A DNA stretch of 64,000 bases from Lota lota (taxonomy: Eukaryota > Chordata > Actinopteri > Gadiformes > Lotidae). This document shows positions 15,901 to 36,900 of this stretch, piece after piece. The DNA lies in the NCBI GenBank assembly GCA_026745465.1, contig JACYXH010000216.1:6741001-6805000 (forward strand), in the 5' to 3' direction. Numbering within the stretch: position 1 is the stretch's first letter; every line of letters begins with the position of its first letter. The notes under the pieces were generated by a model that saw only the letters and a program-made list of their open reading frames with translations, was not told where the DNA came from and ran no database searches. The translations under genes and the position numbers were made by a program.

Positions 15901-18900
15901 TGTGGCCTAGATATCAACAATCATGCTCAGGCTTTTCAGCCTGTCAGCTGGAGCAGAACAAGAGGAAATGGACAGACTTGCTGCTGGCACTGACTCCTCT
16001 GAGAGTGGCCTCAGCTAACGCCTAGTCCCAGACATACAAGAGCTTTCAGAGATTCTAGAAAGATATAGCCCCAGTCTAAAACAATGTAAAATGCATGTGA
16101 TACTGTCTATGTGTGCCCAGGAAACACAAGTGGGGAATGACATGATTTGGATGTGCTGAGTCAGTGCAGAACACATATTCCATAATAATCTAGTTATGAA
16201 TAATATTTCACTTGCCTTGTGAAAATATTACCTGCGAATGTGACCTTATTTCAAAGCCTGAAGCCTGAAAATAACATGGCACATTATAATTGCCGAACAC
16301 AGGTTTTATGTAAACACCTACCACCGTGAGATTCTATTTTCAGAGTGAAATTTGTAATATGTTGACCTTAATAATGGATTAGAAAAGCAAGTTCTGTCAA
16401 ATGTACAGCAGCATAAGACATTTCAATCACAAAAGAAGGTTCAACCTCCTGATTTTCATCCAGTAAGGAAATGTGGAACGCAAAATTAAACAGCTGATTG
16501 TTATAGAGAAGAACAAGTCAGGAAAACTCATTGCGGGGCCAGGCAGGTTTCCTCAGCATAATGGCTAGTGGTTGACAGCATTCTATTAATCAATATACTG
16601 GTGCCTAACCAGGGGCCTATAGCGCCTATAGGTGCGCTTGCTTGCCTGTGTGAAATATATGAAAGAAAAACGATTATACTGTATAGATCCACTGATCTGT
16701 GATAAACAGATGGCCTGCAGGCCCAATGTGGGCTGCTTTAATGTACTGTGTCTTGTTGTGTTAGATTCAATCTGGTTCACCTCTGCTTATTGGCACATCT
16801 TTTGCTTTACAATTTCTCATCTCTTACAATGGCTGGAGAGTCCCTAGACTGCAACAACAGGGGAAACCATCTCGCTAATGCTATTGCACAACACTAAATC
16901 ACTTTAATACAGTTTCAGTGGCGCTAGTCTGCCAAAGCACACTTCTCATGAGCCATTACGTAATGTCACATTCACTCTGGCTTCTGCGCGTAGTGTCTGC
17001 TACAATTGTCAGCAAACCCATAGGCTGCATTTTGTTTGCTTTGTTTGTCCATGCACACTAGGTCTATTAAATACAGATTCCATTCAACTTGTGACACAAG
17101 CTGTACTTGTGTTACTGTGAGTGGGACATCAGAATCTATTACATTATATTATATTATATTATTTAACTGAACAATTTAACAAACAATAGTTATACTTACT
17201 GCTGCAGAATGTGGCATCGGATTAAATCCACACTGGTTGCAGACATTTTTCTTACACTCAGTACAAGTGTTGAAGTTAGGAGGATCCTTGGAGCCCATGT
17301 TGAGTCCCACCTTACAGAGTGGACAGGTGGACTGGCCTGCTTTAGGAGCAGCTTGGGAAGCTGCTGCCTTTGGAGGCTCTAATGGAGCTTTGTCCACTTT
17401 GGCCTGTACTGATGGTGGAGCCTTTGCCTGCTGATGTTGCTCTGGCTTCTTTTCTTGCTCTACTTTCTGGACAGCAGGCTGTTTTGTGTCCTTTGCAGCA
17501 GATAGTTTTGGAGATGCTGGTGGTGTGGTCATCAAGGTGGATGCAGAGTTGAAGATAGAGGAACCAAAGCCAAACATCTTCCCAGTAACTGACTCTGCAG
17601 GCTTGGTAGGTGTGGGTTGAGATTTAGCTCCACCAAACCCAAAGAAGCTTCCTGTCTCTGTTTTTGCAGGATGTGGTGGTGCTGGTGCAGATTTGGTAGA
17701 AGGAATCTCAACCTTTGGAACCTTATTCAATGGCTTATTGAATTCATGTTGTGCGGGCCCTGGTTTAGCGTCTGCTGTGGATGCATTCAATAGTTCTACA
17801 CTTGGCGGTTTGACAGCAGGCTGTTGTTTATGCTGGTCAGGAGCCTGACCTTTTTCATCCACTACTGCACCTGAAACAACAGCTTTGCTTTGTGAAGACT
17901 CTGGTATGAGTGTATCATCCTTTTTGGTCAGAGTTGGCATTTGAGCACCAGCTACAGGGATTTCATGTTTGCCCAATTGTTTGTCTTTCTCTTGAAGGAC
18001 AATGGGACTGGGAATTGTACTTGGTGATTTCATCATGGGTGGTACAGTGGGTTCAGACGCTCCTAATGCTCTCTGCATTTGGCAATTGAGGCAAAGCCAC
18101 TCCTTTATCTGAAAGAATGAGCAAACGTGTCCCATTAAAGATAGTTTCAAATGTTCAGTTAAACCCATATACCCTTTTACATTTTTTATCTTCCATAAAT
18201 TCAACAATATACTGTATATTCCTTAACTATATACAAATATATTTGACATGGCTGATCTATATTTTATGATTGTTGTTGTTGGCATATATAGACAAATACC
18301 CAGGACCAGAAATTGACATACCTCTTTTGTATTTGGCATCGGATTAAATCCACACTGGTTGCAGACAGTGTTCTTACAATCAGTACAGGTGTTGTAGTTG
18401 GGAAGATCCTTGGAGCCCATGTTGAGTCCTACTTTACAGAGTGGACAGGTGGACTGGCCTGCTTTAGGAGCAGCTTGGGAAGGTGCTGTCTTTGAAGGTT
18501 CTGATGGAGCTTTGTCTACTTTGGCCTGTACTGATGGTGATGGTGGAACAGTGGCCTGCTGAGGTTGCACTGGTTTCTTCACTTTCTCTGCTTTCTGGAT
18601 AGGAGGTGATTTGGTGTCCCTTGTGGCAGACATTTTTGGAGATGCTGGAGGTGTGGTTATCAAGGTGGATGCAGAGTTGAAGATGGAGGAACCAAAGCCA
18701 AACACCTTTCCAGTAACCGACTCTGCAGGCTCGGTAGAAGCAGGATGGGGTTTCAGACCGCCAAAGCCAAAGAAACCGCCGGACTCCTGTTTGACATTCT
18801 GAGTTGTAGGAAGGGCAGACTTGGCAGAGGAAGTCACAGTTTGTGAAGGCTGTGGTTTTGATTGCTGAAGAACTGATGGGGAAATCTGTGATTTTGATAC

Positions 18901-33900: not shown

Positions 33901-36900
33901 GGCATTGGACTAAATCCACACTGGTTGCAGACAGTGTTCTTACAATCAGTACAGGTGTTGAAGTTGGGAGGATCCTTGGAGCCCATGTTGAGTCCCACCT
34001 TACACAGTGGACAGGGGGATTGGCCTGCTTTAGGAGCAGCTTGGGTAGCTGCTGCTTTTGGAGGCTCTGATGGAGCTTTGTCCACTTTGGCCTGTACTGA
34101 TGGTGGACCCTTGGCCTGCTGAGGTTGCTCTGGTTTCTTCTCTTGCTCTGCTTTCTGCAGAGCAGGTGGTTTGGTGTCCTTTGCGGCTGCCATTTTTGGA
34201 GAAACAGGTGGTGTGGTTATCAAGGTGGATGCAGAGTTAAAGATGGAGGAACCAAAGCCAAACATCTTCCCAGTGACTGACTCTGCAGGTTTTGCAGCAT
34301 CAGGCTGAGCCTTAGAACCTCCAAAGCCAAAGAAGCCCCCAGACTCCTGTTGTGTGCTCTGCTTTCTTCCAGTTTGACTGGTCTGGTCTGGAGGTTTCTG
34401 AGGACCTGACATCTTCCTGCTCTGCTGTGGTGTTTTCTGACCAGGAGATGGACTCAACTTGTTCTGGCCTTTAGCAGCCTCTGCCATAGATGACGGTTCT
34501 CTTGGCTTAGACGGTGTTGTGTTGGGTGAGCCTGGGGCTGAGGTGACTTGTTTACGGGTTGGAGGAGAAGAACTCGGTGTCTGCTTTTGGGTTGTGGTGG
34601 CTTTGTTGGGTGATGGCTGGACTTTTGAATGTACAGCAGGTTCAGGAGCTCCGGAAGCTCTTTGCATCTGACAGGGAAGACAAAGCCACTCTTTCCCCTA
34701 TGGAAAAAAGATACATATAGCAACAAGTTCAAATCAAAGTGCAGTGTTTTCACAAAGATAAACAATACAGATTACGTACTGTAGTGAGAGGTTCAGAATT
34801 TGATTTAAAGGTGTCAGTTACTTTTTTCTACTGTTAAACAATATGCTGAATAATACTATAAACAACCACCATTTTGCAAAATCCTACAAATGAGGATGTA
34901 GCTAATTCCATTTGTCTTTGAATGTTTAATTGTTTTATTTGCCGATACATGAAAAGCTTTTTTATTTTTTAGCAAAAGTTTGATATGCATATTACAAAAA
35001 ATGTTCCTGTTATTTTCTGTGCCTACTATTTTCCATTGCTCCAATCATTTGTATTCAACTGTTGAGCAGAGGCATACATCATTTTGAAAAAGATGAAAGG
35101 GGGTATATCTGGTGCCTTTGTGCAGAAGATTGTAATGGCTTGTATAATGTCACCTCACTTTTACTAGGTGTCAATGTGGCATGAGTTGTACTGCCAGTTG
35201 GATGCCATAATTAAGTGCTTACATATGGAGGGGCAAAGAAACACCCAGTCTCCACAATAAAAGCTATTTATCATTCAAAATATATTAATTTAACCAGAGA
35301 TAAAAAAAAAAGAAATCAAACATTCGTTTCGAAACTAAAACAACAACAAAGTTTCACCATAGATATTCAAAATATATTAATTTAAACTTAAATAGAAAAC
35401 TAATTAAACCAATAAAGCATATAACTTAAACTACGGCAATGTTTCATGAGACATATTTGGAAACGAACAATATTAAGTAAATCAATCAATACATAAATAT
35501 ACAAATTAAGAAAAAGGAAATACTCACTGCTGAATCCGGGGGGCTGAAGCCACAAAAGCTGCACACTTGGGTCTTACACTTGGTGCACGTGTTGTGGTTC
35601 GGTGGCTCCTTACTGTGCAGGTTGAGTTCTGTAGTCGTACACACAGGACACATGGCCTTGGATCCAGCCATTTTAGATTCCTGGGGTTGTGGCCTTGCCT
35701 GGGTTGGTTTACGCGGGCCTGCAGTTTCTTTTGGACCCTGGTCCTGAGGAGCATGTTTACCAGAAGAAGACGGCTGGTTGGGTGTAGTCCTGTTAGAGCT
35801 CTGTGCCAGTCCAGGTTTAGGTGACCCTATCGGGGATCCAGTCTTTGAGGCTTGCTGCTGTGCCTCTGATCTGGGGTTCCCTTTTGGTTGCAGACCACCT
35901 TTAGGAGGTCCTTGTTGTTGTTGTTGTTGTTGTTGTTGTTGTGGTTGTGATTGTGGTTGTTGTGGTGGTGATCTAGACTTTGGGGAGGGCTGTTGTTGAG
36001 CTCCCTTAGAAGAAGCCTGTTGTTCACCCTTAGCTGCACTTTGATGCTGAACTCCAACCTTAGGCGAACCTTGTTGTTGTTGCGGACCAAGCTTTCCTGG
36101 AGCTTTGGAGTGTTCCTCAGACTTCGCTCCAGGTTTCTGAGCTGCTGCTTGACCGCTAGACTTGGCTGGATTACCCACCTGTCCATTGCCCTGCTGCTTA
36201 GGGGGACCCTGCCCTGCTTTCTGGGGCCCCGTCCCCGGCTGCTGCGGCCCGGATGCCTTAGACCCCTGCTGGGAATCTGCTTTCTTCTTCTGATCCCCCT
36301 CTCCACCATCGTCCCCAAAACGACCCAACTTGTTCACCGCAGAGGACATCGCGCTCAGGGGATTATTCCCACTGAGGAAATTAGAGGAGAACATTGTGGG
36401 GTCTCCCTCCTCCTCTTCCTCCTCCTCCTCTTCCTCCTCCTCCTCTTCCTCCTCCTCCTCTTCCTCCTCGCTAGAGATGGAGTCTACGGGGCTGTCCGAG
36501 CCAGAGCAGGAGCTGCTGTCCTCCCCTCTCTGTCCGGGCGCTCCTGCAGAGGCTTGAGGGGGAAGTGGGGCCGGGGCTTTGGAGAGGGCATCAACGGCCC
36601 CAGTAGTGCTGCTGCTGCTGCTGCTGTTACCGCCGCTGCTCCCTGGACTCTCTGCTGGTTCAGCATCTACATCCGCCTTCCTGCAGTCACAAGACAGCAG
36701 AGGAGAGAAAGGAGAAGTGGGGGTAAACAGAGAACCATCAGGGAAGAGGTGCTATCAGAGGAAGTATCAGGATGCCTTATTGGTCTCTCTCTCTCTCTCT
36801 CTCTCTCTCTCTCTCTCTCTCTCTCTCTCTCTCTCTCTCTCTCTCTCTCTCTCTCTCTCTCCCCTTGCATATATTTTCAGATTCACTAAGCTAGTATTAG

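Follow-up and report, generated by a model that had tools for sequence, protein, structure and literature searches.

Organization of the piccolo b array

The window analysed here is a stretch of 64,000 nucleotides from the genome of Lota lota (assembly GCA_026745465.1, contig JACYXH010000216.1, positions 6,741,001 to 6,805,000), and it very likely holds the 5′ part of a gadiform piccolo b gene (pclob) that codes for a Piccolo with 15 zinc fingers. On its minus strand we observed 14 tandem array exons, R1 through R14, each having splice signals and a match to the finger domain PF05715: R1 (33891–34697; 269 amino acids), R2 (31384–32100; 239), R3 (29668–30471; 268), R4 (28515–29381; 289), R5 (27512–28318; 269), R6 (26594–27367; 258), R7 (25593–26330; 246), R8 (24516–25319; 268), R9 (23449–24243; 265), R10 (22365–23168; 268), R11 (21288–22088; 267), R12 (19427–21175; 583), R13 (18322–19146; 275) and R14 (17200–18108; 303). 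All 14 are preceded by AG and followed by GT, are free of stop codons, have a length that is a multiple of 3 and are in phase 0 at both ends. The exon boundary splits the finger between its third and fourth CxxC pairs, such that every array exon opens with the last CxxC of one finger (EWLCLxCQ) and closes with CxxC 1–3 of the finger that follows.

The array is bounded on the same strand by two exons, whose boundaries fit splice signals. The exon at 35528–36680, with acceptor and donor, carries the front half of finger 1 (CxxC 1–3), and that at 11332–12222 completes the last finger with its back half (CxxC 4). In a profile search, the 14 array exons and the first exon (67 bits) scored above the PF05715 cut-off of 30 bits; the last exon, which holds only 13 residues of the domain, scored below it. 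Each array exon has eight finger cysteines, with extra cysteines in R3 (one), R4 (one) and R12 (four). When neighboring exons were joined, 15 fingers were obtained, all 15 with eight cysteines in the same order. Their spacing is nearly constant: the C2–C3 distance differs by one residue, in F1 only, the C6–C7 distance differs by up to two, and the distance from C1 to C4 is 24 residues in F2–F15. F13 carries a ninth cysteine. Mean identity over C1–C4 across the 14 copies is 0.90. The IZF motif was recognized by pattern and by alignment in 14 of the 14 repeats, each of which carries one to a few changes in it. The array amounts to 4,067 amino acids. An earlier note on this DNA had described 14 tandem, open and spliceable copies of one exon between these two flanking exons, each adding one complete finger to give 15 in about 4,070 residues, with no cysteine lost, no stop gained and no frame shifted; all of this was borne out.

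The introns within the array are 112–1,790 bases long, compared with 4,977 bases for the large intron that follows it (12223–17199). Beyond the last finger exon, an open frame of 2,302 codons (4122–11027, minus strand) is presumably the long exon of piccolo; this assignment is from its position and the layout of the mammalian gene, and the frame gave no Pfam match.

A tblastn search of the window (E 0.01), introns included, gave no match outside the exons that would indicate additional or decayed array copies. A repeat finder returned 14-copy families of 300 bases with 66–93% identity to the reference copy, and the Jukes–Cantor distance from copy to copy was 0.29 on average, ranging from 0.06 to 0.44. 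Tandem repeats of ∼1 kb are a known assembly hazard, and R7, R8 and R9 are close copies with the introns after R7 and R8 being 93% alike, so a duplication of one or a few exons by the assembly had to be considered. We regard it as very improbable, as the pairwise distances reach 0.44, the introns mostly differ, the contig is 8.99 Mb long, and other public contigs yield predicted proteins that are orthologues of R13 and R14. For the whole array, which the earlier note had named as a possible assembly duplication, this explanation is unlikely: the copies differ from one another, they lie on this long contig and a PF05715 search of the assembly found no second array.

Gene identity and published precedent

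Pieces of PDZ, C2A and C2B domains lie ∼6–24 kb downstream, beyond the window and on the same strand (L025–L027). They were detected by tblastn with mammalian Piccolo domains as two PDZ, four C2A and three C2B pieces of 67–89% identity; the same probes had no match in L028–L030. Because these domains are present on the same strand, the gene is a Piccolo rather than a Bassoon.

We also searched the whole assembly (575 Mb, 867 contigs) with PF05715 and scored all 59 candidates. Among the 24 matches, 15 are the array with its first exon, and the other nine are on five contigs; no second array was found by this search. One locus, on contig C207 (L018, L022), is a separate two-finger piccolo, whose central exon has an IZF that is interrupted, as judged by eye; it seems to be piccolo a, for which PMC3484663 gives such an interruption. 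Two further contigs, C298 and C376, have two matched fingers each in bassoon-like exons, which we take to be bassoon from their sequence. As the same genome holds this two-finger piccolo and two bassoon-like loci, the array gene is piccolo b rather than piccolo a, and the gene complement agrees with that of the teleosts in PMC3484663. We also observed copies of the piccolo a locus at C723:75885–82230 (L013, L024; a contig of 103 kb) and C60:40410–43535 (L016; 68 kb), with about 91–98% identity to C207 over matches exceeding 300 bases; these are either uncollapsed haplotypes or recent duplicates.

Comparisons with other fish bear on the gadiform assignment. PMC3484663 prints 60 bases of cod repeat 13, and in BLAST this fragment matched R8 with 92% identity over its length; a pattern search with 51 bases of it, allowing three mismatches, found no match in the window. 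Judged by this fragment, the fish is cod-like but not evidently Atlantic cod. Tilapia fragments matched the window only in pieces of 20–45 bases, and puffer fragments mainly in finger parts (69–89% in pieces longer than 50 bases). In the first homologue list (the best 120 of 759 matches), third place was taken by a predicted protein of Coryphaenoides rupestris (Gadiformes).

The earlier note could not tell whether the expansion had been described. It has been: Nonet (2012; PMC3484663) examined seven teleosts and reported that in every one of them piccolo b has the same exon amplified 8–16 times, with 9 exons in fugu, 9 in spotted puffer, 8–10 in percomorphs, 15 in zebrafish and 16 in cod. The array is thus a real, further example of an already known case, and what this window adds is its copy number and its mosaic history. 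The mean copy distance of 0.29 is near that of cod (0.268) and unlike the 0.68–0.84 of other teleosts (PMC3484663), although the distance methods for the window and for cod were different. For cod, gene conversion was listed as the third possibility, and loss followed by re-amplification was preferred (PMC3484663). Our literature search, judged by titles and the beginnings of abstracts, turned up no later work on the piccolo b fingers or on array function.

Selection on fingers and linkers

We divided each array exon into a 5′ part, comprising the finger end and the first linker, and a 3′ part, running from the IZF to the third CxxC. When the 91 pairs of copies, which are not independent of one another, were pooled, dN/dS rose from 0.12 in the 5′ finger part through 0.27 in the 3′ finger part to 0.58 in the first linker. 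This check had been proposed in the earlier note, which read selection from the uniform retention of cysteines. Purifying selection on the fingers is supported by these ratios; the argument from retention stands only in part. At silent sites the 3′ halves have diverged far less than the 5′ parts have, and cysteine retention in the 3′ half therefore partly reflects youth. Retention at near-saturated silent sites is seen in the 5′ part, that is, for C7 and C8.

Positive selection on the linkers had been proposed in 2012 (PMC3484663). Among nine close copies, dN/dS for linker 1 was 0.53 (bootstrap 0.41–0.66), which does not support positive selection by point changes.

The two parts of the array exons differ at silent sites

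Fourfold-site differences among the window copies were 0.42 in the finger portion of the 5′ part and 0.38 in linker 1. In the 3′ part they were 0.29 for the IZF, 0.14 for linker 2 and 0.22 for the finger core, with 0.32 in the last codons. None of 5,000 codon-column shuffles reached the 5′–3′ contrast, which was present in 77 of 88 pairs. In the pair R1 and R8, for example, 10 of 29 fourfold sites in the 5′ part are different, as against 2 of 73 in the 3′ part.

The introns show where this likeness stops. Comparing 100 bases against a 99% shuffle limit, we found 12 upstream and 9 downstream intron pairs to be alike, some of them probably by chance; BLAST of whole introns gave seven alike downstream pairs. 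In the 82 of 91 pairs having unrelated downstream introns, the fourfold differences were still 0.40 in the 5′ part and only 0.21 in the 3′ part. The low 3′ value despite unrelated introns indicates that the shared stretch ends inside the exon or at its edge. Simple unequal crossing-over does not account for this, since it would have carried the downstream intron along.

The 3′ likeness could also have come about from selection that includes silent sites, for example on splicing signals or RNA structure, with no exchange between copies. The IZF and the finger in the 3′ half are indeed conserved across fish. In the front finger, however, silent differences were as low as 0.25 between copies of the window, compared with 0.47 for one puffer repeat and 0.93 for the piccolo a of this genome, and the similarly conserved back finger showed no such drop (0.67, 0.63 and 0.71, respectively). 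The ratio of the differences among copies to those from puffer was 0.52 (0.33–0.85) for the front and 1.05 (0.82–1.36) for the back in a codon bootstrap; in 0.6% of the resamples the ratio for the front was as high as that for the back. We therefore consider this explanation improbable.

Shared tracts were sought as weighted identical runs. With all polymorphic columns treated alike in the shuffle test, 18 of 91 pairs exceeded the 95% shuffle limit after correction for the number of pairs (62 uncorrected). The significant runs fall in two places: 10 of the 18 extend from the end of linker 1 into the IZF, and 8 from linker 2 into the finger.

Trees of the two parts with other fish proteins

Homologue searches, of which we used the best 120 of 759, 669 and 660 matches, gave 182 proteins (P0001–P0182). 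The trees contain 71 of the 148 rows having both halves: the 14 window copies, 14 of 21 gadiform-like rows and 43 of 113 others, 19 of these 43 being hand-picked, mostly for high BLAST ranking. The gadiform label was assigned by similarity (Coryphaenoides rupestris is outside the trees); P0049 received it only after the BLAST ranking, and P0173 joined the group after the 3′ tree. The approximately unbiased (AU) tests were made on quick trees with groups named after the BLAST ranking or after the trees.

In the tree of the 5′ linkers, a single gadiform clade was rejected (p-AU 0.0008). R14, together with two gadiform-like orthologues, joined five rows of other fish (support 93), and nine copies, R1–R4 and R7–R11, grouped together (support 88). 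R13 and R6 were on long separate branches with gadiform-like orthologues. R5 and R12 were also outside the main group; long branches (R12, R5 and others) make placement in this tree unsure, theirs included. In the tree of the 3′ parts, on the other hand, all 29 gadiform-like rows came together (support 89), and placing R14 with the five non-gadiform rows of the 5′ tree was rejected (p-AU 0.0057).

The last residues of R14 are PHSAA. Those of the five rows that it joined are PHTAA in two and PHTEA, PHTAV and PNETA in one each, and a Lates calcarifer protein has the tail PHTAA. From these tails we infer that the joined rows are last repeats, as R14 is.

We also noted that the linker of P0028 goes with P0043, P0080, P0091 and P0054, and its 3′ half with P0066 and others. 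Partial exchange may thus not be limited to gadiforms.

Gene conversion as the probable origin of the mosaic

The aforementioned data are evidence that the array exons are mosaics, whose 5′ and 3′ halves appear to have different histories. In our judgment this mosaic is best explained, and probably so, by gene conversion acting on short tracts of the 3′ half. The reading that we favor as a whole, at a probability of roughly 0.65, is that the gadiform array evolves in concert in one part only: in most copies conversion equalizes the stretch made up of the linker-1 end, the IZF and CxxC pairs 1–3, and an older identity is kept by the introns, the last codons and most of each 5′ linker. Conversion would copy short tracts, from the end of linker 1 through the IZF to C6, between exons; most 5′ linkers, last codons and introns would meanwhile diverge, and purifying selection on the fingers and the IZF would maintain the array.

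The scenario preferred by Nonet (2012) for cod is that the gadiform array shrank to one or a few copies and then re-expanded. It accounts for the low overall copy distance, both in the window (0.29) and in cod (0.268), and it agrees with the grouping of R1–R4 and R7–R11 in the 5′ tree and with the 93% likeness of the introns after R7 and R8; these nine copies have expanded recently, at least in part. The outlying linkers tell against it. R14 joins non-gadiform rows by its linker, has a tail resembling theirs and that of Lates calcarifer, and one gadiform clade is rejected; R13 and R6 share long separate branches with their gadiform-like orthologues, and R5 and R12, with unsure placement, are outside the main group as well. 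A faster divergence of these linkers is possible in principle. On the conversion reading, the loss and re-amplification proposed for the cod lineage does not hold for R14, nor probably for R5, R6, R12 and R13, and as an account of the array as a whole we think it unlikely.

Several observations tell against conversion as the general explanation. The 5′–3′ contrast was missing in 11 of the 88 pairs, and with all copies pooled the IZF (0.29) was only modestly below linker 1 (0.38). The significant runs were short and in two places, not over the whole 3′ half. The back-finger comparison comprises only 14 codons, and some copies are near piccolo a at the back finger (6–13 of 42 bases differ). R5 and R12 are far from the other copies in the 3′ half too (dS mostly 0.4–0.6). 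The 3′ clade had a support of 89, not 95, and orthologues pair inside it, R14 with P0001 and P0002 (95) and R13 with P0014 and P0020 (88). This pairing implies that much of the homogenization predates the split of these gadiforms.

If the conversion reading is true, the array consists of equalized docking modules on individually old spacers. The mosaic also suggests a mechanism by which a repeated domain is kept uniform while its spacers diverge, namely partial conversion within the exon, and its history bears on the cod scenario that was left open in 2012.

Two kinds of linker change were seen beside this pattern. R5 and R12 have a related extra stretch after the IZF that is missing in the other 12 copies and resembles sequence in other fish proteins; they are probably older copies that escaped homogenization at this stretch. 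The linker of R12 is extended by a minisatellite of 33/66 bases (20295–20926, minus strand), found in a repeat search; its 33-base repeat is in frame and makes units of 11 residues. A comparable 11-residue repeat, PPQAPPTAQAK, is present in fugu repeat 8, there on the opposite side of the IZF (PMC3484663), and linker growth of the minisatellite type may have arisen more than once.

Composition of the fingers, splicing and possible function

Each copy of the repeated exon supplies the back of one finger and the front of the following one, which makes the inner fingers hybrids. Going by the exon structure given in PMC3484663, 13 of the 15 fingers (F2–F14) are predicted to combine a front of the finger-2 type with a back of the finger-1 type. 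The mammalian pairing would be kept only in F1, with both halves of the finger-1 type, and in F15, with both of the finger-2 type.

The phase 0–0 exons, the AG and GT signals and the open frame together mean that any run of copies splices in frame. Most or all copies would be included, giving a protein of 15 fingers with long linkers and one IZF each. In zebrafish, RT-PCR over exon pairs showed each exon to be spliced in, only the 14th being skipped, and that rarely, and RNA-seq of the head gave adjacent junctions in similar amounts (PMC3484663). It is conceivable that the 14 exons are instead alternative, with one or a few per transcript and isoforms of two or three fingers, as in mutually exclusive splicing. 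With all exons in phase 0–0 every subset keeps the frame, and some skipping occurs in zebrafish tissues other than the head (PMC3484663). The serial inclusion seen in zebrafish argues against it. With 112 bases or more, the introns are longer than steric exclusion generally allows, and fingers as nearly identical as these (the C1–C4 identity of 0.90) are poor alternatives. We hold such exclusive use to be quite unlikely.

The earlier note had stated that the two fingers of mammalian Piccolo and Bassoon bind PRA1 and the ubiquitin ligase Siah1. In a table of a 2016 review (PMC4709825), Siah1 is listed for both fingers of Piccolo and Bassoon, and PRA1 for finger 2 of Piccolo: it was mapped to residues 1010–1033 of rat Piccolo, the first 24 residues of that finger (1010–1071). 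The stretch matching this 24-residue segment, C1 to C4, occurs 14 times in the present gene, inside the homogenized part. On the binding of PRA1 by Bassoon the two sources disagree: PMC3484663, citing Fenster 2000, states that the Bassoon finger region binds PRA1, and the table in PMC4709825, with its PRA1 result for Piccolo finger 2, has "not tested for Bsn".

We tentatively propose, with slightly less than even confidence, that the array would act as a row of equivalent sites at which synaptic vesicles dock, in the simplest case through PRA1, and to which Siah1 binds as well. A tether of some 4,000 residues would carry these sites, and a scaffold molecule with more of them would retain a larger number of vesicles at the active zone, or inhibit more of the ligase there. 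The multiplied valency would follow from the number of copies, given that the hybrid fingers bind and that their number has an effect. Set against this proposal, the inclusion of most or all copies is argued from zebrafish mRNA, and zebrafish tissues other than the head skip some exons (PMC3484663). We found no binding data for any fish finger in the literature, and both PRA1 and Siah1 may fail to bind the hybrid fingers.

With its many possible vesicle-docking modules in a single scaffold protein, the array may be regarded as a natural titration, and the differing copy numbers of teleosts make the question of valency testable. A Piccolo with 15 fingers is striking to a newcomer; the 2012 paper is perhaps familiar to specialists of the active zone or of fish genomes.

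Other features of the window

A part of a semaphorin exon lies upstream of piccolo b at 61692–61922 on the minus strand (Sema domain, 81 bits). Its best solved relative is semaphorin 3A. The promoter side of teleost piccolo b is reported to carry SEMA3D, SEMA3A, SEMA3E and GRM3 (PMC3484663). The motif MGNE, the expected start of the first coding exon, had no pattern match in the window. The stretch 57995–58340 is 69–75% similar to one beside a bassoon-like exon on C376 (L017), perhaps through a shared transposable element. A 27-base tandem repeat of 15 copies (51026–51429) lies in an open frame on the plus strand, and long AC/GT and other microsatellites are abundant in the window.

Comparison with known systems

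Among the known systems are the fingers of rabphilin-3A and RIM. They have the same four CxxC pairs, and rabphilin-3A (1zbd) was the best solved match of the finger profile (E 0.00037), the first of four PDB matches at E 0.1; they differ in having one finger between Rab-binding helices and no array (PMC3484663). Bassoon has two fingers split at the identical place and an IZF (PMC3484663), but is devoid of PDZ and C2 domains and is unamplified in the fish of that study. Mammalian Piccolo (PCLO/aczonin) and teleost piccolo a share with the present gene the exon split of the fingers, the eight-cysteine fingers, the IZF and the PDZ, C2A and C2B domains; they have two fingers and a single central exon. 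The closest system is teleost piccolo b, which has the same exon, phase, finger split and IZF, the same large intron after the array, an upstream semaphorin gene, and a two-finger piccolo a in the same genome. Two differences set the window apart from it: the array here has 14 exons (15 fingers), a count absent from the available portion of the text of Nonet (2012), and the 5′ and 3′ halves of its exons have separate histories.

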